Shown: positions 46,018 to 58,338 of the stretch, one piece after another
How positions within the stretch are numbered: position 1 is the first letter of the stretch
Layout of the letters: every line of letters begins with the position of its first letter
Origin: an uncultured Bryobacterales bacterium
GTDB lineage: Bacteria; Acidobacteriota; Terriglobia; Bryobacterales; UBA6623
Direction of reading: 5' to 3'
NCBI GenBank assembly: GCA_951813065.1
Contig: CATOTH010000008.1
Coordinates: 248,001-312,000 of the forward strand
DNA: 64,000 bases
Notes under the pieces: generated by a model
Database searches by the model: none
What the model saw: the letters and a program-made list of their open reading frames with translations, nothing else
What the model was told of the DNA's origin: nothing
Made by a program: the position numbers and the translations under genes

Positions 46018-48433
46018 CTGCCGTTTACACACAAATCATGGTGATCGCATCTTCTGATACAGTTTGCTGGCTTTATTCAGGCGACGAGCGCGTTCGATGG
46101 CTTGCCTAATTGCCGCCAGGCGTATGTAGCCTTCCCACATGACCTTGTGGCCCGGGTGGGCATAGCGCTTGCGTTTGAAGTTGAGATACCCGCCCAGCAT
46201 CGCCAGTGTCAGCACCGCCCGTCCGAGATTGTCCGGCGGTGCTTGCCGACGATCCTTGGCGAAATCCTCCAACGCCGCGATCTCGATCTCCGAGAAGAAC
46301 GTCTCCGGCGGCAGTTCCGGCGTGTCCCGCCCCATCAGCGTCATCGCCGCCAGACGCCACGCGATCACCGCGTTGATCGTCACCGCCCGCTCGATCCGCT
46401 CCCCCCGCCGATGCCCCAGGTACTCCACCTTGCAGCCCGACTTCAGCACCCGGTGCCAGTCCTCGATCCGCCACCGCAGCCGGTACCACTCCAGCATCCG
46501 CTCCGCGTCCTGCCGCGTCTGTACCGGCAAACTCGTCAGCAGGAACCACTCCAGCCGTGCCACCCCCTCCGGCGCGTTCTCCTCCCGCACGTGCACCACG
46601 TTCAGCGGCACCGCGGCCCCCTGCCGGTCCGGATCCCGCAACTGCACCGCCTGCCATCTCAGATCCACCTCCGCCACGCGTTCCTCGCGCGCCGGCCGGC
46701 CCGGCTGCCCGCGGCTCGACCGCCGCGCGCTCTGCCGCGCCACGTGAATCTCCAAACGCCCCTGCGCGGCCTCCTGCCGCACCGCCTCGAACAGCTTCGG
46801 CACCCCCTTGCCCAACACCCGGTCGTGCTGCGCCCGCACCAGCAGGTCCACCGTCCCCAACCGCCGCTGCTCGGCGAAGATCGCGTACACGTCCCCTTCC
46901 CGGTCCAGCACCGCTACCGGCCGCACCCCTTGTAACTGCTCCGCCAGTTCCGCACACTCCCGCAACCCCCGGATCCAGCGCATCGTCTTGCGCTCCTCCA
47001 GCGGCTTGCCCTGCTCCGCCTGCCCGTCCGGGGCCTCGTACTGGATCTGCGGCACCCCCAACGGGATCCCCTCCCCGTTGACCACCAGCGTCGAGTGCAT
47101 GTGGATCCCCAGCGTCCCCGCCGAGCCCTTGTTCTTGCTGATCAGGCCCAGTCCCACGCAGCCCGGATGCTCCGCGAAATTCAGGTCCGTCCCGTCCTGG
47201 ATGCACAGCACTGCCGACTGGCCCTGCATGCGCTGCAGCGTGCGCTCCCGGTGCGGCGCCAGGATGTGCTCCGGCGTCACCTCCGAATCCGCCGGCTGGT
47301 CGATCATCCGGTAGTAGCCCCGCACTGCCGCCAAGTCCTTCTGCGCCGCTCCGGGAAACGACTTGGTGGGCGCTGCCGCCTGGATCTCCACGCTCTGCAC
47401 CAGCCTCCGAGTCAAGCGTACATCGCCCAGCGGCGCGGTCCCGAACTCGTTGTGCGCCCACTCGCCGGAGGCCAGGCCCGCCCCCAGTGCCAGCGCCGGC
47501 ACGCCCGGCGCTGGCAGGCCCAGTTGCGCGCGCCAGTTGCGCGCCAGCGGATACAGCCAGATGGCCTTCACGTCCACCTGCGTGCCGGCGGCCGCCAAGC
47601 GGCCCCGCCCGGCGGTCACGCCGATGCGCTGCCAGTTGGCGGCCGCCAGCGAGGTGCCCGCTTGGTCTTGAGAGACAAAGGTTTCCACCAGCAGGGGGCG
47701 GTAGCCGTAGCGCCGCAGGCAGTCGTCGGGCAGCCGGCGCAGGGCCAGCGAGAGGGCCTTGGAGGCGAGATTGCGGCAGGCGGCGGAGGGTCGGATCAGG
47801 AAGCGGCTCAGGCCGAGCACGCGATGCAGGTGGCGCGAGCGGGTGGCGGGGTCCCAGCCGATGAAGGCGTCGCGGGCGGCCAGCGTGAGAGCGGCCGCGG
47901 CAAAGCCGAGCGCACCGAGCACGCCATGTTCGCAGACCAGCAGGTAGCGCAACTGGGCCCCGGCGTGGAGGACAGCTCCGCGGGGATGCTCGCGGGCGAT
48001 GAGTTCGTTCCAGACGCGGCGCTGGTGCTCGTCGCGGACCGCGACGAGTTGCAGGTCGCGCACCCGGTCGACCCGGGCGGGCAGGCCGACGGGCGGGGGC
48101 ACGGGACGGTCCAGGCGGCGCGGGCGGCCACGCTGGCGGTTGTGCCGGGGCGCGGGCAAGTCGATCTGGCGGGCGGCTGCGAGAGCGCGCAAGGCCTGCA
48201 TGCAACTGGCGACCTGCGGCTTGCCGTGGGCATCGAGGAATCCGAACCGGGCGCAGACCTGCCGGCCAATTTCGGTGCGGCTGGCGTCGCCCGCGTCGGC
48301 CACGAGTTTGCGGACCTGGATCAGCGCAGGGCCCCGCGCCAATGTGGTCGGGATCCGATGTTGCTCATACATGCTCCAGAAATGGCACAGAGCGATGTCA
48401 AAAGTCAAGTGTCAACTTGTGTGGCATCGGCAG
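46018..48433. mobile_element. IS4/Tn5-type insertion sequence with DruA-fused transposase (2,416 bp)
   Basis: The ends are CTGCCG at the left (46018) and its complement CGGCAG at the right (48428-48433). Beyond these six bases the ends match imperfectly, about 15 of the first 19 positions. An exact 8-bp direct repeat, CCCGCACC, flanks it at 46010-46017 and 48434-48441. IS4 relatives usually give 9-12 bp, so the precise ends could be off by a base. The transposase fills the element. Confidence 0.75.
46036..48372 (-). CDS. Tn5-like transposase with N-terminal DruA-like (DUF4338) domain
   Basis: 778 residues from the ATG at 48372, which has GGAG six bases upstream; a TTG at 48408 is the longer option. 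Residues about 90-300 show the DUF4338/DruA pattern (ELIAREHPRGAV, LRYLLVCEHGVLGALGFAAA, RDAFIGWDPATR, YGYRPLLVETFV, AAANWQRIGVTAGRGRL). The rest is a Tn5-type transposase: EWAHNEFGTAPLGDVRLTRR, CIQDGTDLNF (first Asp), AVLDREGDVYAIFAEQ (second Asp), LEWYRLRWRIEDWHRVLKSG (Glu). All three catalytic acids are present. DruA is the hallmark protein of Druantia defence, but DUF4338 domains are also fused to transposases. Confidence 0.9.
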   Translation of the reverse strand: MYEQHRIPTTLARGPALIQVRKLVADAGDASRTEIGRQVCARFGFLDAHGKPQVASCMQALRALAAARQIDLPAPRHNRQRGRPRRLDRPVPPPVGLPARVDRVRDLQLVAVRDEHQRRVWNELIAREHPRGAVLHAGAQLRYLLVCEHGVLGALGFAAAALTLAARDAFIGWDPATRSRHLHRVLGLSRFLIRPSAACRNLASKALSLALRRLPDDCLRRYGYRPLLVETFVSQDQAGTSLAAANWQRIGVTAGRGRLAAAGTQVDVKAIWLYPLARNWRAQLGLPAPGVPALALGAGLASGEWAHNEFGTAPLGDVRLTRRLVQSVEIQAAAPTKSFPGAAQKDLAAVRGYYRMIDQPADSEVTPEHILAPHRERTLQRMQGQSAVLCIQDGTDLNFAEHPGCVGLGLISKNKGSAGTLGIHMHSTLVVNGEGIPLGVPQIQYEAPDGQAEQGKPLEERKTMRWIRGLRECAELAEQLQGVRPVAVLDREGDVYAIFAEQRRLGTVDLLVRAQHDRVLGKGVPKLFEAVRQEAAQGRLEIHVARQSARRSSRGQPGRPAREERVAEVDLRWQAVQLRDPDRQGAAVPLNVVHVREENAPEGVARLEWFLLTSLPVQTRQDAERMLEWYRLRWRIEDWHRVLKSGCKVEYLGHRRGERIERAVTINAVIAWRLAAMTLMGRDTPELPPETFFSEIEIAALEDFAKDRRQAPPDNLGRAVLTLAMLGGYLNFKRKRYAHPGHKVMWEGYIRLAAIRQAIERARRLNKASKLYQKMRSP

Positions 48434-49177: not shown

Positions 49178-49476
49178 TTGCAGACGTTTAAGACCAAGGC
49201 GTTCGCCCGTTTCGGCGATCGCGAGGGACTGGAGGACTCCACGCTGTGCGAGGCTGTCCTCCGCGCGGAGGGGCTTGGGTGGATGCCGATTTGAGCGGCG
49301 GAGTCATCAAGCAGCGCATTGCCCGCAAGGGTGGCGGCCGGTCCGGCGGGTTCCGCACCATCGCGCTGTTTCGGCGGGCCGAGCTTGCGTTCTTCGTGTA
49401 CGGAATCGCGAAAAGCGGCCGAGAGAATCTGCGCCGGGACGAACTGGAGACGTTCCGGCTGCTGGCCGACGAGTAA
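49178..49476 (+). pseudogene. HigB/RelE-type toxin, frameshifted and truncated
   Basis: From a TTG at 49178 the frame reads LQTFKTKAFARFGDREGLED and then TLCEAVLRAEGLGW before an early stop. After a one-base shift near 49260 the other frame reads VDADLSGGVIKQRIARKG, SGGFRTIALFRR, AFFVYGIAKS and stops at TAA (49474). Further in frame is LALDGTGLSAAQAV, so the TAA is also a lesion. Intact relatives of this HigB/DUF1044-type toxin are read in one frame. Confidence 0.7.
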
Positions 49477-49543
49477 CTGGCGCTGGACGGGACAGGCCTC
49501 TCGGCGGCGCAGGCAGTTGGAGCGATAGTCAAGATGAAATGGG

Positions 49544-49861
49544 ATGACCAAGCGATACAACAGTGAGGTGCTGGCGGCAGGGCATGAGGCGGCGCTGGGA
49601 CTCGCCGGGGCCGGTTTCATGTCGAAGCGGACCATGCGGGCGTTCGACGAGATGTGCCTCACGCCGGTCAAGGAGATGGCGCCAGAGGATATACGCGCTT
49701 TTCGGCTTCGCGAGAACGCGAGTCAGGCGGTGTTCGCGTGCCATCTCAACGTGACGTCGGGGCTGGTGAGCCAGTGGGAGCGCGGCGAGAAGCGGCCGCG
49801 CGGCGCATCACTGAAGATCCTGACGCTCGTAGCAAAGAACGGCCTGGGCGCAGTAGCGTGA
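49544..49861 (+). CDS. HigA-like helix-turn-helix antitoxin
   Basis: 105 residues. The C-terminal XRE-type helix-turn-helix (about residues 45-100) reads APEDIRAFRLRENASQAVFA and then LNVTSGLVSQWERGEKRPRG. This is the NadS/HigA layout in which an N-terminal segment precedes the helix-turn-helix. It follows the broken HigB by about 70 bp in the usual toxin-first order and is intact, so it may persist as a DNA-binding regulator. Confidence 0.85.
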   Translation: MTKRYNSEVLAAGHEAALGLAGAGFMSKRTMRAFDEMCLTPVKEMAPEDIRAFRLRENASQAVFACHLNVTSGLVSQWERGEKRPRGASLKILTLVAKNGLGAVA

Positions 49862-50136: not shown

Positions 50137-51171
50137 ATGTCTCTGAATGAAAACTTACAAAGGGCTAGGCGGGAAAAGAACGACGAGTTCTACACGCAGC
50201 TTTCCGACATCGAGAACGAGCTCCGCCACTACATCGGGCACTTCTCCGGCAAGGTTGTGTATTGCAATTGCGACGACCCCCGCGTCTCCAACTTCTTTCA
50301 TTACTTTTCGTATAACTTCGAGCGCTTGGGCCTGAAAAAGCTCATCACCGCGTGCTACAGGAACCAGCAATTCGACATGTTCAGCCGTCACGATTCGGAG
50401 CGGGCAATATGGCTCGAATACAAGAGAAACGCGAAGGGCAGCAGGGTGCCCGACGTTGGGGATATTGGAATCCGTGAGTTTAAATGGGACGGGGATTTCC
50501 GCAGCGCAGAATGCATCGAGCTTCTGAAGCAGGCGGACATCGTGGTGACCAATCCGCCGTTTTCGCTTTTCCGAGAATACGTCGCCCAACTGGTGCAGTA
50601 CGGCAAGAAGTTCCTGATTATCGGGGGCCAGAACGCAATCACCTATAAGGAGATTTTCCGACTAATCAAAGAAAACCGGGTATGGCTTGGGTATGGCTTC
50701 AGGAATGGAGACGCATATTTCAAGGTGGCAGACGTTGAACGCTATGAACGGAAGTCGTACTTCGACCCAGCAACCGGACTCGTCAAATTCCGAAATGTCT
50801 GCTGGTTCACAAATCTTGACCATGCCAAGCGCCATGAGGAATTGATTCTCTACAAGCGGTACTCGCCCGAGGAATACCCGGCCTACGACAACTACGATGC
50901 GATCAATGTGGACAAGATTGCCGAAATCCCGATGGACTGGGACGGGGCGATGGGGGTACCGATCACATTTCTGGACAAGCACAACCCGGAACAGTTCCAA
51001 GTCTTGGGAATAACAGACAGGGACAACAACTCCGGCCTGAAGACCAGAGAGTATACGTCGGCAGATGTGCCCAACCCAAGCGATCTGAATAGAAGGGGTG
51101 TTATAAGGGTTGGGGGCGAGTATAAGCCCACCTATGTACGCCTTCTGGTTAGAAGAGTGCCGTCGCAATGA
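50137..51171 (+). CDS. EcoRI-type adenine-specific DNA methyltransferase
   Basis: 344 residues. The MT_EcoRI family shows NDEFYTQLSDIENELRHY (15-32), the SAM-side YCNCDDPR (42-49) and catalytic NPPF (139-142, in IVVTNPPFSLFREYV), then YGKKFLIIGGQNA and GYGFRNGD. It methylates the amino group of adenine in a short target. Unlike EcoRI, the partner here is a DUF262-HNH protein, whose start overlaps this stop as ATGA. The methylase should protect host DNA. Motifs are all intact. Confidence 0.92.
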   Translation: MSLNENLQRARREKNDEFYTQLSDIENELRHYIGHFSGKVVYCNCDDPRVSNFFHYFSYNFERLGLKKLITACYRNQQFDMFSRHDSERAIWLEYKRNAKGSRVPDVGDIGIREFKWDGDFRSAECIELLKQADIVVTNPPFSLFREYVAQLVQYGKKFLIIGGQNAITYKEIFRLIKENRVWLGYGFRNGDAYFKVADVERYERKSYFDPATGLVKFRNVCWFTNLDHAKRHEELILYKRYSPEEYPAYDNYDAINVDKIAEIPMDWDGAMGVPITFLDKHNPEQFQVLGITDRDNNSGLKTREYTSADVPNPSDLNRRGVIRVGGEYKPTYVRLLVRRVPSQ

Positions 51172-52262
51172 ACATTGACCTGAAGAAAATCACAGTCCGA
51201 GACCTTGTGGACGAGTACCATGACGACGGCGAAGGCGGCGTGCGTGGCTACGGCGGAAAGCTCGACATCCGCCCACCGTTTCAGCGCGAGTTCGTCTATA
51301 GAGACAAGCAGCGCGATGCAGTGATCGAGACGATCAACAAGGGCTTTCCGCTCAATGTGATGTATTGGGCCGTGCGCCAGGACGGAACGTATGAGGTCAT
51401 CGATGGCCAGCAGCGCACGATCTCAGCCGCGCAGTACGTGGAAGGCGACTATTCCCTTGACGGGCGGTATTTCCACAACCTGCAAGACGACGAGCAGGAG
51501 AGGATTCTCAATTACCCGTTGCAAGTTTATGTCTGTGAGGGGAGCGCCAGCGAGAAGCTGGATTGGTTCAGGATCATCAATATCGCGGGCGAAAGACTGA
51601 CCCGCCAGGAGCTGCGGAACGCTGTCTATGCTGGCCCGTGGGTGTCCGACGCAAAGCGGTATTTCAGCCGGAAGGGGGCTGCGTGCCCGGCTTACGCAAT
51701 CGGCCGTCGGTATTTGAATGGGAGGACGGAACGCCAAGAGTACCTCGAAACCGCAATCCAATGGATCAAGGACGAAGGCAAAACGGTCGAGGAGTACATG
51801 GCCACGCATCAGCACGACAAGACCGCAACGGCATTGTGGAGTCACTTCCAGTCTGTAATCAACCGGGTGGAAGCGGTTTTTCCCAAGTACCGCAAGCAAA
51901 TGAAAGGAGTGGATTGGGGCGGGCTTTACGGGCAACTCAAGGACGAGAGCCTAGATCCCGAAGGACTTGAAGCCGACGCTGTCCGCCTGATGATCGACGA
52001 CGATGTGACGAAGAAGGCGGGCATCTACCCATATCTCCTTACTGGCGAGGAAAAGCATCTCAATATCCGGGCCTTCTCCGATGCCATGAAGCAGAAGGCG
52101 TTCGAGATTCATAACGGTAATTGCAGGTCATGCGCGAAGGCGTTTGAGATGTCGGAAATGGAGGCCGACCACATCACCCCGTGGTCCGAGGGTGGCAAGA
52201 CAATCGAACAGAACTGTCAAATGCTGTGTAAGCATTGCAATCGCAGGAAATCCAACAAGTGA
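51168..52262 (+). CDS. DUF262-HNH nuclease, likely restriction partner
   Basis: 364 residues, overlapping the methyltransferase by four bases. The N-terminal DUF262 (ParB-fold) domain has PFQREFVY (37-44) and the DGQQR nucleotide-binding motif (79-83), followed by a helical middle. The C-terminal HNH domain (about 319-364) holds CRSCAKAFEMSEMEADHITP and EQNCQMLCKHCNRRKSN, with two Cys pairs and the catalytic His. DUF262-HNH proteins include GmrSD-, SspE- and BrxU-like nucleases that cut modified or unmodified DNA. Pairing with an EcoRI-type methylase suggests cleavage of unmethylated DNA (inference). Confidence 0.88.
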   Translation: MNIDLKKITVRDLVDEYHDDGEGGVRGYGGKLDIRPPFQREFVYRDKQRDAVIETINKGFPLNVMYWAVRQDGTYEVIDGQQRTISAAQYVEGDYSLDGRYFHNLQDDEQERILNYPLQVYVCEGSASEKLDWFRIINIAGERLTRQELRNAVYAGPWVSDAKRYFSRKGAACPAYAIGRRYLNGRTERQEYLETAIQWIKDEGKTVEEYMATHQHDKTATALWSHFQSVINRVEAVFPKYRKQMKGVDWGGLYGQLKDESLDPEGLEADAVRLMIDDDVTKKAGIYPYLLTGEEKHLNIRAFSDAMKQKAFEIHNGNCRSCAKAFEMSEMEADHITPWSEGGKTIEQNCQMLCKHCNRRKSNK

Positions 52263-52294: not shown

Positions 52295-52684
52295 CTAGTG
52301 TGTATCCCGGTAATAACGTTTAACATTGGGAGGGGTCTCGGGCTCCCTGCTGCTCCAGAGGCTCTCGCGCCCGCTGGATCTTGGCCAGCATCTCCTTCCC
52401 GTCCGGACGGTCGCTTCCGGAATCGAGCGCTTGGTGCCACGGCCGGGCTGGTCGGCCAGGCCGGCCAGCCCCTCCCGATCGAACCGCTGCGACCATTTGT
52501 GGACGCAGGGGACGCTCACGCCGAGTTGGCGGGCCGCTTGGCGTAGCGAACAGCCGTCGGCCCGCAACAGCACGATGCGCGCCCGCAGGCAGTCCCTCTG
52601 GGACGTGGTCGGCGCCCGCACGCGCTGCTCCAGCACCCGCCGCTCCTCGGCTGTCAGTTCGACCACTGCAACAGGCTTGGCCAT
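52295..52684 (-). pseudogene. IS630-family transposase N-terminal fragment
   Basis: From the ATG at 52684, VVELTAEERRVLEQRVRAP followed by RARIVLLRADGCSLRQAARQ and LGVSVPCVHKWSQRFDREGL is the helix-turn-helix start of an IS630 transposase (GLADQPGRGTKRS next). Homology breaks after SIPEATV, and the catalytic DDE domain is missing. The upstream leader with AAAATTTTTCAC may be the original IS end. Confidence 0.8.
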
Positions 52685-52834
52685 GCCGAATTCCCTTACG
52701 AGGGAGTCTAGCAAAGGGTGGCCTATTGTGAAAAATTTTGCCGGGAGAAACACTAGAATCTGAGAAAGGCCGCCCGGAGGTCGAGATCATCAGGCCGGAA
52801 CATCAGTCAAGCGTTGCCGATTTGGAGGAGGACA

Positions 52835-53227: not shown

Positions 53228-56200
53228 CTATTCCCTTGAGTGTATGTGGGGGGCTAGGCCTTGAAGACTAACCTCCCGGACGATCCCCCCAATCTTTGGA
53301 ACCAACACTTCCATCTCAACGGCCCCCTCAAGAACCTGCCCAAGTAGCGCCAACAGCAATTCGCCCAAGAGCAAGTGGACATCGGACAGCGCGTGTTCAG
53401 CGGGAAGCCACGGTACCGGAAAGTCCTCTGCGCATGCGACCAAGATGGAGGCTTGATTGCTGTCTGGCCCACCTGCAGACTCAGCGACCAAGAACCCCTT
53501 CGGCAGATCGCCGGGGTTGGGGAGTTTCACTGCTACTTGAGCCTCGAGTTGTTTCCGATTCGAAATGGTAATGACGGCTTCTCCCCGTGGTATGTGCTCA
53601 ACGTCCACCAACCGTTGCCGGATGACGCGGTCTAGACTCGATAGCAATAGCGCCACAACCGTAGTCGTGATGGCTGTTCTCGGGTTGTCGTCCAACTGTA
53701 CAAGCGAGACTACGACACCGTCAGCAATCCCCAGTCGAATCGTCCAGTGGCCACTCCCGTCAAGCTGAGGTTTGAAATAGATCCGGGCTGACGAGGCTGA
53801 AATCCGTTCTGCTACATCAGTGACATCGCCTAGGGTCAGCTCTTTGCTAGATTGTGCTAACAGGATTGCTGCTGCTGCCGCTAGTCGCCCGGTCGTTATC
53901 GACTCAGACTCCGGAGGGACTACGGCGTTCGTCAATTGGAGAACAATCCGGCGTTCGACCACCGGAGGAACGTCTGCGAGCAGATCCGCCACCGAAAGCG
54001 CGACTGTCGGCACGATCCGCTCGATCCGTTTGATGGTGTCTGCCATTCTCGCCACAGCGCGATAAAGCGTACTGAGAGGGCTGATATCCTCGCCGGTCCG
54101 CGTCGAGTTTGGCAAGAACACTCCACGCAACAGCTGGGTTTTGAGGTCAGGATTCTTCAACGATGTACACAAATGCAATGCGTCTGAAGCCAGAGAGACA
54201 AAGTACGATCCGCCGGGTCGAATCGCCGATATTGCTGTTACAGCGGCTGTATAAGCGCTGATGGCTTCGGCGTGATCTCGTTGACCGGTCAGCGCAACAG
54301 CCCGCTCCTCCTCGGCTCGTGCGATCAAGATGTGATCGCCAACCAGGCGTGCAAGTGTGACGGCATGCTGTGCATGATGGAGTGCGTCACCATACTCTTC
54401 ACGCTGATTGTGAACTGAGGCGATTAGCTCGTTCGCGGCGGACTCGGCATCGCGAAGACCGCCCGCCACGGCCGCGCTGTCGGACGCGTGGTATTCGATA
54501 AGGGCCTTGTCCAGCTCGCCTTTATCCCGTAAGACGTTGCCAAGTGTGACCCTATTGATCGCAATGACATGAAGATCGTCTAGTTGCTCTCCGATTTGGA
54601 TCGCTTCGTGAGCGAACTCTGCTGCACGGACTGTATCACCTGATTCACGATAGTGCCTAGTGAGGTAGTTGCAAAGGGCGGCGCGTTCTCTCGGGTGCTC
54701 TTCAGGGGCCAACTCCTCTTGGAGTTCTTGAGCAAGAGCCGCAGCCTCCTCTTCTAGACCTCCAATACCACTCAGCGCAGCCAGGAGGTTCAGGCTGGCA
54801 ACCCTCTTCCCGACTTGGTCTCCGAGATCACTGAACACTCTCAAGGCTTCACGCGACACGCTGGCAGCAGACCGAAAGTCTCTTCCAGAGATATACTCCG
54901 CTGCCAATAGTGTCCCTGAACGTGCTGCATTAAAGATGTCCCCATTCTCAGCAAACATGTTGCGTAGCGAAGCAAGTTCGGCAATGCGTTCGGTACGTGG
55001 TCTGTCACCAATGTCGAGCACAGCCTCCATCTCCCTCAGCCAGACGAAACACGCCGGCTCGTTCAGCCGGTTAGCAGTTTCCCGGGCCTGCTCAAGTGCT
55101 TGAACTACACCATCACTGGCACCTGTTTGCTTGAGGGCATATGCCAGTGCCAACAGTGCTTGCAACCGCTCTTCGTGGCCCCCCCTATCCAGAGCGAGTT
55201 CTGCCTGCCGACGGAACACGGGAATAGCGAGCGCCCCGCCTCCCATTAACACTGCTTGCCCAGCAGACCGCTCTAGTATGCGGTCCGCATGGCGGCGTTC
55301 GTTAGCCTCAGAATAGACATGAAACGCTGCTAAGTAGCGTTCAGAATCTTCGAAGAACTGTCCAAGGCGGCTTGCAAAGAACGCCAAGCGGTCTGGAGAT
55401 TGGTTTAACTGATCCAGAATCGTTGCTCGAAGATGCTCATGCACAAGCATTATCTGGCCCCTCACTTGCCGTAACAGCCCACTGGCAATCGACACTTGCT
55501 CGGCAACAGACTCTGGTCCTTCCTCTCCATCCAAAAGCGTGTGCAGGTTTCCTAGCGAGATTGGCCGAGGTGATAGCGCCAGATAGAACGTGATTTCCTT
55601 GGCCCGAGGCGGCAAGGATTGGATGGCGCGGATTTCAAGCTCGCGAAGGCTGAGTTCGGCGGATGCCCCTTCACCGAGTGCAAAAAAACGCAAATAGAGC
55701 GGACTCCCGCCGCTTCGAGCTATGAGATCGGCAAGCTCGCCAGGACCGGGACGCCTCCCTCTAAGAGTGGTGACCCATCTGACGGTTTCTTCGCTCGTCA
55801 AGGGTGGCAATTCGAAACGCTGGTTCGAAGGAACGCTGAGACGTGGTCCTGAGGTCACAACCAGGTGGCGACCCCGTCCGGGCGCTTCCCAGAAAACTTG
55901 CGGGTCAGACGCGCCGTCGACCACGAGTACTACCTCTGGAATTTCGTCCCAATTCCTTAGAATCTCACTGATGGCGCCCTGCTCTGTCGTCAGAGTAACG
56001 GCTGGCCGTCCTAGCCGTGCTCTGATCGCGTTGGCGGCTCGAGCCAAGAGATCCAAGCGGCTCAGCCCCTGACCATCAACAAAGATCCATCCATTCTCCA
56101 CGGACAGTTGGGCGAGCAATATCGTTTTGCCGCCACCAATCGGTGCGGTGACAACGATACGGCCACATTCATTCAAGGTGTCGATCAATGCACTCTCAAC

Positions 56201-56770
56201 ATGCGGCCGACGGAGACGGTGGACTGGAGTGGGAACAAGAGATTCGAGCACCTCCTCGGGTTTCGGTGCGTCAAAGGAGAACAAAGCTTGATCGGAAAAG
56301 CGATTGCTGATCACTGCGGTCAGGTCGTTTCGTACTCGATCCCTGAGCTGCTCTGAGTCTGAATAAAACGCGACAGTTATGCCGGAGTTCATGGCTTTAT
56401 CGACTAGGTCTTGAAGCCTCGTATCCCTACAAGAAGGAGATTGGTATACGTAGACTAGACGGTCAACACCTCCAGTTTCCGCTATCTGAAACTCGTCTTC
56501 GACTCCCGAGATTTTCATTCCTGGCGCGATCCATCCGTAAGACTCTTTGTAGATCCCGACGAAAATCTGTGACTCTTCAAGTCGCGACTTATAGAGGTCG
56601 CGTGGAGGATGTGGCCGTGCGCCGATATCCTCGAACAGGATAGGGACGTGGTTGATTGATAGGACCGCGTCTCGGGCTGCTGCACGCTCGGCTGCGCATT
56701 CCGTAATGGTCGAACTGACGAATACGCGAAGGCGATCAACTGTCAACGATGTCACGATGAAGCGCTCCAT
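53228..56770 (-). CDS. DUF4062-STAND NTPase-TPR protein, probable defence protein
   Basis: 1,180 residues. Residues about 12-100 are DUF4062 (RLRVFVSSTITECAAERAAA, then KSRLEESQIFVGIYKESYGW), a TIR-like Rossmann domain. A STAND-type NTPase follows: Walker A APIGGGKT (209-216), Walker B VVLVVDG (280-286), HLVVTSGPR (302-310) and the SGGSPLY (353-359) motif that matches the STAND GxPL box. From about 500 to 860 are TPR-like helical repeats (ALLALAYALKQTGASDGVVQ, NRVTLGNVLRDKGELDKALI). The last ~300 residues are unassigned. STAND proteins of this layout sense a ligand and trigger an effector. It overlaps the upstream gene by 19 bp. Confidence 0.8.
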   Translation of the reverse strand: MERFIVTSLTVDRLRVFVSSTITECAAERAAARDAVLSINHVPILFEDIGARPHPPRDLYKSRLEESQIFVGIYKESYGWIAPGMKISGVEDEFQIAETGGVDRLVYVYQSPSCRDTRLQDLVDKAMNSGITVAFYSDSEQLRDRVRNDLTAVISNRFSDQALFSFDAPKPEEVLESLVPTPVHRLRRPHVESALIDTLNECGRIVVTAPIGGGKTILLAQLSVENGWIFVDGQGLSRLDLLARAANAIRARLGRPAVTLTTEQGAISEILRNWDEIPEVVLVVDGASDPQVFWEAPGRGRHLVVTSGPRLSVPSNQRFELPPLTSEETVRWVTTLRGRRPGPGELADLIARSGGSPLYLRFFALGEGASAELSLRELEIRAIQSLPPRAKEITFYLALSPRPISLGNLHTLLDGEEGPESVAEQVSIASGLLRQVRGQIMLVHEHLRATILDQLNQSPDRLAFFASRLGQFFEDSERYLAAFHVYSEANERRHADRILERSAGQAVLMGGGALAIPVFRRQAELALDRGGHEERLQALLALAYALKQTGASDGVVQALEQARETANRLNEPACFVWLREMEAVLDIGDRPRTERIAELASLRNMFAENGDIFNAARSGTLLAAEYISGRDFRSAASVSREALRVFSDLGDQVGKRVASLNLLAALSGIGGLEEEAAALAQELQEELAPEEHPRERAALCNYLTRHYRESGDTVRAAEFAHEAIQIGEQLDDLHVIAINRVTLGNVLRDKGELDKALIEYHASDSAAVAGGLRDAESAANELIASVHNQREEYGDALHHAQHAVTLARLVGDHILIARAEEERAVALTGQRDHAEAISAYTAAVTAISAIRPGGSYFVSLASDALHLCTSLKNPDLKTQLLRGVFLPNSTRTGEDISPLSTLYRAVARMADTIKRIERIVPTVALSVADLLADVPPVVERRIVLQLTNAVVPPESESITTGRLAAAAAILLAQSSKELTLGDVTDVAERISASSARIYFKPQLDGSGHWTIRLGIADGVVVSLVQLDDNPRTAITTTVVALLLSSLDRVIRQRLVDVEHIPRGEAVITISNRKQLEAQVAVKLPNPGDLPKGFLVAESAGGPDSNQASILVACAEDFPVPWLPAEHALSDVHLLLGELLLALLGQVLEGAVEMEVLVPKIGGIVREVSLQGLAPHIHSRE

Positions 56771-57915
56771 TCCGCTGGAGGATCGACCGCCGTGTCAGCC
56801 TCAAGAGCAGACAAAGATCTTAGAGCTGCTTGGAGACCTGCGAGATTCGCGCGTCTCTTCTTTGCGAGATGTCGAAGCAACACGTTGCCGTCTGCGACAA
56901 CCTGCGTGCTGACATCTTCGGTTGAATACGCTGGGAGTTCTCCACCGTCCGCAAGTTCGTATCGTGTCCGTATTGCTTGGATGATGCCGTTTTCTGCCTC
57001 GCGAGCACTCAGCCCGGCAAAGTGAGCACCTCGACCCATCTCAGCACTGAGCACGAGATTGCAAAGAGCTTGCTCAATTTGCCAAGGCCTGACCCCGTAT
57101 TCGGCCAAGCCTCGCATCAGGCGTTGCACGGACGACTCTCGACGCATCCTCTCGAGCGTCACAGGAAAGTGTTGCGCGAGTGCCCTAGTGCGCTGTTTGG
57201 CAATTCCGTCTGGCTCAAGTTTCGGGGGTCCTGTGGGCGATTCTGGCTCGTTCCCGGATTCGGCGCGTAGTGCAAGCCACGCCATTGAATTGGGCGTCGC
57301 CTCATCCTCGTCAACGAAAGTGACCTCGAATTTCTGCAAGGGCTTTAGACTGGGTATCGGGCGAACGTCTGGCGACGATCGAGGGGTCAATACGCTCCTG
57401 GGGCCCACATACGTCACGCCATCTAGCAAGAAGGGAGCGATGGGCGCAGAACAGTACTTTCGGAAAGCCTGTAGAAGCGGGTTAATCGAATCAATCGGCT
57501 TGATCCAGGTAGGTCCCAACACGAACGCTCTATGGGCGCGGTCAAATCCAAGACAGCGCCGCTGGAGACGCGAGTACTCAGGTGAGATCGCGAGCAGATA
57601 CCCTCCGTTCTTCCGGAACACGAAACTCATAGCAACAGAGTCGGGGTCGGTCATCTGACTCCAAGCGCTGAACTCTTCGAAAGCCTTGACGAGTTCGTTC
57701 CCGCGCTGGGCAACAAGGGAGATTACCGGTACTTCCTTGTCGAGTGTTCCCGACCAAGCGCTACCGTATGCGATCGCGTCGACCACAGCTGCATTTAGGT
57801 GCCCAATGAAATCCACTGAAGCAATCGCCGCCACGTATGGCAGGCATCCATAGTCGAATCCTCTCGGCCTCAACTTGAAATCCGGGCCACGAGAAGTTCG
57901 TCTCCGCCGCTTCAT
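56752..57915 (-). CDS. Unknown protein in operon with the STAND gene
   Basis: 387 residues from the ATG at 57915 (GGGACTC upstream); the frame continues to 57975 with ATGs at 57927 and 57975. I recognise no domain. An N-terminal part (FDYGCLPYVAAIASVDFIGH through AVVDAIAYGSAW) could be an alpha/beta domain. The middle is Pro/Glu-rich (PESPTGPPKLEPDG), and the C-terminus is helical (RRESSVQRLMRGLAEYGVRP). The overlap with the STAND gene shows translation coupling. It could be a sensor, effector or regulator; its function cannot be told from sequence. Confidence 0.7.
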   Translation of the reverse strand: MKRRRRTSRGPDFKLRPRGFDYGCLPYVAAIASVDFIGHLNAAVVDAIAYGSAWSGTLDKEVPVISLVAQRGNELVKAFEEFSAWSQMTDPDSVAMSFVFRKNGGYLLAISPEYSRLQRRCLGFDRAHRAFVLGPTWIKPIDSINPLLQAFRKYCSAPIAPFLLDGVTYVGPRSVLTPRSSPDVRPIPSLKPLQKFEVTFVDEDEATPNSMAWLALRAESGNEPESPTGPPKLEPDGIAKQRTRALAQHFPVTLERMRRESSVQRLMRGLAEYGVRPWQIEQALCNLVLSAEMGRGAHFAGLSAREAENGIIQAIRTRYELADGGELPAYSTEDVSTQVVADGNVLLRHLAKKRRANLAGLQAALRSLSALEADTAVDPPAEWSASS

Positions 57916-58338
57916 GAGTCCCACCATAGGACACTTGCCGGAAACACCCTCAGTTGCTCTGCTCGGTGGGCTCAAGAAAGACTCTAGTCACCAGATCCCA
58001 AACACCTAGTCCGTTGACCTCAGGTCGTCTCAAGATAGAGCTCTTCTCTTTCGGTCAAGTAGGAAGGACTTCGGGACTTCGGAATCGTCGAAGCTTGTAT
58101 TCGCTTAGCATAGGTCAAGCACGGAGTGGCAGCATGGGTCCCTGACTGGATCCCGCATTGGAAGAAGATGCCATTAACGATCGGGGAATCAGTAGATTAC
58201 GATGATTTGCCAGATGATCTGCAAAACTCTTATTCGTGGGTTCGATTCCCACGAGAGCCTCCATCGCTAAGTCGACTGTGCCCAATGCCGAGAGGTTCCT
58301 GCCACCTCCATATTGTCAATACTCCTTATGATTCCCAT
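57916..58338. other. Gap with tRNA-like remnant
   Basis: No gene is evident. The right tRNA-like sequence lies here (58214-58263). Confidence 0.5.
58214..58263 (+). repeat. tRNA-Cys-like 3' half, candidate right attachment site
   Basis: The loop CTGCAAA holds GCA, the tRNA-Cys anticodon, and is followed by the T arm GTGGGTTCGATTCCCAC and the end GAGAGCCTCCA. The T arm pairs perfectly. The anticodon stem is mismatched and the matching 5' half (GGCTCTC) is not found upstream, so this is a 3' half. The core at 58233-58250 equals that at 44710-44727. Confidence 0.55.

Follow-up and report, generated by a model that had tools for sequence, protein, structure and literature searches.

Which of two adjoining gene products reads the DNA when an EcoRI-family adenine methylase is encoded directly before a nuclease unrelated to R.EcoRI? 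The question is raised by a gene pair, here called M (methylase) and R (nuclease), in a 64,000-nucleotide stretch of DNA from an uncultured Bryobacterales bacterium (the window). An earlier note, made from the letters alone, had described an EcoRI-type methylase gene overlapping a DUF262-HNH nuclease gene; both open reading frames were found where it had placed them, sharing an ATGA at 51168-51171, and Pfam confirmed both family assignments. The pair is a widespread and little-described bacterial DNA-defence pair, and it places the textbook EcoRI methylase within a family that is usually partnered with a nuclease of another type. No paper linking DUF262-HNH proteins to EcoRI-family methylases was found in the open-licence literature. 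The features of the pair are as follows.

50137..51171, + strand: M, EcoRI-family adenine-N6 DNA methylase, 344 aa (PF13651, PADLOC, identity to M.EcoRI)
50551..50562, + strand: NPPF catalytic motif of M, aa 139-142 (sequence, family alignments)
50692..50802, + strand: V1, first hypervariable segment of M, aa 186-222, putative target-recognition segment (conservation profile, alleles, DNA mosaic)
51007..51132, + strand: V2, second hypervariable segment of M, aa 291-332, putative target-recognition segment (conservation profile, alleles, spare cassettes)
51168..51171, + strand: ATGA overlap of the M stop and the R start (sequence; a -4 overlap also in relatives)
51168..52262, + strand: R, DUF262 (GmrSD_N)-HNH nuclease, 364 aa (PF03235, PF01844, PADLOC)
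51267..51629, + strand: DUF262/ParB-like domain of R, aa 34-154 (Pfam, predicted fold)
51402..51416, + strand: DGQQR motif of R, aa 79-83, nucleotide-hydrolysis signature of DUF262 (sequence, alignments)
52122..52259, + strand: HNH nuclease domain of R, aa 319-364 (PF01844, E=5.9e-14; match to 4h9d)

Domains of the methylase and the nuclease

The methylase matches the EcoRI_methylase family of Pfam (PF13651) over aa 6-340 (E=1.9e-135), with a score of 452 bits against a cut-off of 26.4 and model positions 1-344 of 345 covered. It is 52% identical to M.EcoRI, whose gene neighbours that of R.EcoRI on an E. coli plasmid, and its NPPF motif is intact and, in the family alignments, invariant or nearly so. 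A sequence search matched no solved structure to M, and a fold search with the predicted model returned no solved methylase at E<=0.001. PADLOC assigns M to MTase_II (7e-119) and R, over its full length, to REase_II (PDLC03418, 7e-139); thus, both proteins are already catalogued as Type II parts.

The N-terminal domain of R is a GmrSD_N domain (PF03235, E=3.1e-18, 67 bits against a cut-off of 33.2). Its DGQQR motif is invariant in alignments of the R family, which suggests that R uses an NTP. The function of this motif has been established for GmrSD, BrxU and DndI (PMC4619093, PMC8565348, PMC11662687), and in BrxU and DndI it is the nucleotide-hydrolysis motif (PMC8565348, PMC11662687). In the HNH domain, residues D334-H335, N349 and N358 are intact and invariant or nearly so. 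DUF262 and HNH are the only Pfam family matches of R, and no helicase motif was found among them. The architecture had been likened to that of GmrSD, SspE and BrxU, a comparison that holds for DUF262 only in part of the protein: the C-terminus is an ordinary HNH domain (PF01844) with no match to DUF1524/GmrSD_C (PF07510) at E<=0.1, and R is tied to a methylase. Clear sequence matches of R in the structure database are to HNH nucleases only. The predicted structure (pLDDT 87, pTM 0.61) resembles the N-domains of ParB/Noc, BrxU and a Geobacter HNH nickase, with modest scores throughout. One full copy of R is present in its own genome.

Pairing of the two genes across genomes and plasmids

A scan of one genome per species with R gave 192 relatives, of which the best 80 (56-88% identical) were kept; these are spread over very many phyla. 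Together with L004, a full-length relative from the window's phylum, and the window itself, they make a set of 82 loci. Of the 82, a set that includes the best 80 of 192, 78 have a methylase gene, or the 3' part of one, upstream in the same orientation; in the other four the contig ends less than 500 bp upstream, and one of these (L085) still shows methylase C-termini. The gap between M and R is 16 bp or less in 65 of the 78 loci, and 22 of the 78 have the same -4 ATGA overlap, an arrangement that would couple the translation of M and R. The pairing is far beyond chance, and the adjacency is seen across many phyla, on plasmids and in a few phages. That M and R form one functional unit, as the earlier note had argued from the overlap, is thus borne out by the conserved pairing, and the best reading of the unit is that M would mark self DNA and R would cut. 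A conserved third subunit was considered and rejected, the genes found between M and R in about 12 loci being varied. On plasmid pK205-4b-C of Enterococcus dispar (L106), M and R are separated by optrA, an oxazolidinone resistance gene.

The conserved adjacency that the same note had proposed to look for was found both in these 78 of 82 genomic loci and on plasmids, in 41 of 60 records. In these 60 plasmid records with a methylase, which were not de-duplicated and in which partnership was scored per record, the partner was DUF262-HNH in 41, R.EcoRI in 14, both in none and neither in five. Therefore, DUF262-HNH is the usual partner and R.EcoRI belongs to one side-clade, so that the pairing is not the unusual one it had been taken for. 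In the methylase tree, the R.EcoRI-partnered methylases form one group amid those partnered with DUF262-HNH (SH-aLRT 100 on all columns and 90 on core columns alone).

Several related loci depart from the plain pair. A suspected fusion of M and R in L. plantarum proved to be something else: the plasmid gene in question (L102:2180-4282), annotated only as dcm, encodes an EcoRI-family methylase fused to a C5-cytosine methylase, without R. Three genomes of one genus in the window's phylum carry stop-bearing fragments 65-69% identical to R (L005, L006 and L009, in G108, G117 and G160), which by their sequence are remnants of lost R copies. Mycobacterium phages Norz, Marchy and Hami1 (H87-H89) encode an EcoRI-family methylase 55.7% identical to that of the window, and no nuclease turned up in these phages when R was the query; it is possible that these methylases serve as self-protection against such systems.

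Exchangeable segments and the reading of DNA

In the conservation profile of methylases partnered with DUF262-HNH, the lowest values fall in V1 and V2, whereas the same segments are conserved (0.65-1.0) in R.EcoRI-partnered methylases; a third stretch, at about aa 72-117, is variable in both partner groups. Clustering, with thresholds of our own choice, gave 14 allele types of V1 and 32 of V2. These types recur among otherwise divergent methylases. For example, Bifidobacterium and the Moraxella plasmid pSKB0120-6, whose methylase is only 43% identical to that of the window, have the same V1 type as the window. The two segments combine nearly freely (53 V1xV2 combinations among 71 loci), and on the R tree, which has few strongly supported (starred) branches, V1 changed at least 35 times and V2 at least 53 times. 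M.EcoRI itself represents one V1 type and one V2 type, each also found separately beside DUF262-HNH nucleases (V1 in L029 and L105; V2 in L038, L043, L049 and L065). Further, in L030 and L085 the body of M is followed, before R, by extra V2 cassettes in tandem, and one extra cassette from each was confirmed as a PF13651 C-terminus. In L050 (2891-4984), two tandem methylase genes that differ in V1 but agree in V2 type precede a single R; this could reflect an asymmetric site needing two methylases.

This allelic behaviour, the R.EcoRI-partnered control group and a cross-link of Tyr204 in M.EcoRI, a residue within V1 that we take to contact DNA, point indirectly to V1 and V2 as the putative target-reading parts of M. 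Both segments of the window methylase fall into allele types other than those of M.EcoRI, and it is therefore unlikely to read GAATTC.

The nuclease stays nearly constant while these segments are exchanged. Most of the loci compared come from metagenome-assembled genomes (MAGs). Among 20 phylogenetically independent pairs of loci with R at least 80% identical, V1 and/or V2 differ in all 20 (the V1 type in 14, the V2 type in 19). In the R.EcoRI group, V1 and V2 were both kept in 15 of 15 comparisons, which are pairwise and mutually non-independent, at methylase-core identities of 66-90%. The R of the window is 85-87% identical to those of L014, L016, L017 and L018, yet V1 is different in each; its V2 type is shared, among the sister loci compared, with L016, L017 and L020 only. 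The sharpest case is that of L023 and L024, two loci in one Bacteroidota MAG. Their R proteins are 97% identical (10 of 359 residues differ, eight of these within the first 16 residues, next to M), and their M segments have been exchanged (V1 22% identical, V2 11%). At the DNA level the two loci are mosaic, in that an identity of about 0.95 drops to roughly 0.4 within V1 and roughly 0.5 or below within V2, and recovers to about 0.98 in R.

No segment of R was found that strongly tracks the V1 or V2 type, and when R identity was regressed on core identity, the sharing of V2 had no effect. Pairs with the same V1 have an R slightly more similar than core distance predicts (+0.033, null SD 0.008), an excess spread diffusely over R; a weak contribution of R to specificity may therefore exist. 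Near-identical Rs are paired with methylases whose putative target-reading segments differ, and so R is unlikely to recognise a site by itself.

In orthodox Type II systems the nuclease and the methylase read the site independently, R.EcoRI being an enzyme that reads its site itself (PMC4081073); a methylase reader is thus not exchangeable under a constant nuclease. We accordingly lean, on the V1/V2 pattern, the fold resemblance of R and its DGQQR motif, towards a two-gene restriction-modification system whose methylase would carry the sequence specificity for both activities. M would methylate adenine in a target picked by the exchangeable V1 and V2. R would consist of a ParB/Srx-like NTP-binding domain and an HNH nuclease, with no site preference of its own. 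M bound at an unmethylated target would bring R there or activate it, and R would then cut foreign DNA using NTP. R would thus need M for recognition, and cleavage would be NTP-dependent and blocked by methylation. Such a system would be compact, at about 710 residues in total, and its specificity may change through two short segments of one protein. The natural pairs of loci with near-identical R and different segments make the question of the DNA reader directly testable, and the catalogue of V1 and V2 alleles could be developed into a code from which to predict recognition sites.

A bolder version of this proposal, which we regard as possible but doubtful, makes the pair a distinct class of restriction system. 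Here, the two exchangeable half-readers of a small methylase would serve to load a ParB-like, nucleotide-gated DUF262-HNH clamp onto unmethylated sites, from which it would slide and cut; the spare cassettes of some loci would switch specificity, and R.EcoRI would be an autonomous enzyme that took the place of this ancestral nuclease late on. The clamp step draws only on the weak resemblance of the predicted fold to ParB/Noc, and the methylase tree is unrooted, so that the direction of replacement between R.EcoRI and DUF262-HNH is not readable from it.

Other explanations place the reading of DNA elsewhere. R might act without a complex with M, its DUF262 domain sensing, whatever the surrounding sequence, whether the N6-methyl mark is present or absent and switching R accordingly, much as in SspE and DndI. 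These two proteins share DUF262 and HNH with R, and likewise couple a DUF262 NTPase domain and an HNH nuclease to a DNA-marking module; their NTPase is stimulated by the phosphorothioate mark (PMC11662687). Such sensing would also explain why R need not follow V1 and V2. We nevertheless consider it unlikely, since a sequence-free reading of absent methylation would require some other signal as well, no source of which is seen here, and R lacks the C-terminal DUF1524 of SspE and DndI, in which the mark (phosphorothioate rather than N6-methyladenine) and the marking genes are also different.

Similarly, R and M might recognise the same site independently, as orthodox Type II enzymes, with the variation of V1 and V2 leaving specificity unchanged. 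The adjoining genes, the simple two-gene M-R operon layout and the PADLOC model that calls full-length R a Type II restriction enzyme all agree with this. The improbability of the explanation, which we rate as considerable, comes from the fixity of V1 and V2 only beside the self-reading R.EcoRI, from near-identical Rs paired with different V1 and V2, from the want of any R segment strongly tracking their type and from an NTPase motif that is unusual for such enzymes. The EcoRI system differs from the present pair also in its unrelated PD-(D/E)XK nuclease (PF02963 rather than DUF262-HNH), in its gene order (R-M rather than M-R) and in its V1 and V2, which are fixed there and exchanged here.

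That R is a Type IV nuclease cutting modified phage DNA, with the methylase a mere passenger, is very improbable: the DUF262 enzymes GmrSD and BrxU do act on modified cytosine DNA (PMC4619093, PMC8565348) and the fold of R weakly matches BrxU, but the same methylase family stands in the same order at near-zero spacing in most of the 78 loci, 41 of 60 plasmid methylases have DUF262-HNH and none has both nucleases, and R has no DUF1524 domain. R shares with GmrSD and BrxU a DUF262 domain with DGQQR and a His-Me finger nuclease; it is short (364 aa), lacks GmrSD_C/DUF1524 and has a methylase next to it in 78 of 82 loci, whereas GmrSD has no cognate methylase. R thus departs from Type IV GmrSD in two defining features, and this sequence analysis gave no sign that R depends on modified DNA in the manner of GmrSD or BrxU.

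The methylase-directed system that we favour has a parallel among Type III enzymes. In Type III Mod/Res systems the methylase reads the site for both activities, and here a methylase with exchangeable, putatively target-reading segments stands beside a conserved, NTP-linked nuclease, an analogy by which the pair would work like Mod/Res. However, Res is an SF2 helicase-nuclease and Mod belongs to another methylase family, and there is no helicase here. In BREX, the methylase PglX (BrxX) senses unmethylated sites, and its target-recognition domain sets both methylation and defence (PMC11842806); BREX differs in being a multi-protein complex with a much larger methylase and no DUF262-HNH partner gene of this kind. 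In Helicobacter pylori, target-recognition alleles are known to move from gene to gene through recombination in the conserved sequence that flanks them (PMC3983042), a process described there for the S genes of Type I and the Mod genes of Type III systems and not for EcoRI-family methylases.

Site depletion and neighbouring genes

Avoidance of GAATTC was tried as a clue to specificity and set aside: among pooled relatives it ranks only 8th of 64 palindromes (O/E 0.73), its 2208 occurrences in the window's own genome have no matched controls and are uninformative for specificity, and its avoidance has little bearing in any case because V1 and V2 differ from those of M.EcoRI. In the pooled loci L013-L092 the 6-base palindrome with the strongest depletion is CTCGAG (O/E 0.45, with no control genomes compared), which also tops the depletion list within the window.

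The region 46036-48408 (- strand) encodes a 790-aa protein with an N-terminal DruA domain (PF14236) and a Tn5-type DDE transposase. Immediately before the pair, 49246-49861 (+ strand) holds a RelE-family toxin fragment (PF06296), covering profile positions 35-98 of 120 with the N-terminal part missing from the reading frame, followed by a helix-turn-helix (HTH) protein of phrog_2104; the two make up a toxin-antitoxin module that may be degraded. Directly downstream of R, a short reading frame with transposase-type HTH domains (52295-52753, - strand) is probably an insertion-sequence remnant. Further on, 53228-57975 (- strand) encodes a 1180-aa protein with DUF4062, AAA-like and TPR domains, whose gene overlaps that of a 407-aa protein without a family match; this gene pair is perhaps another defence unit.
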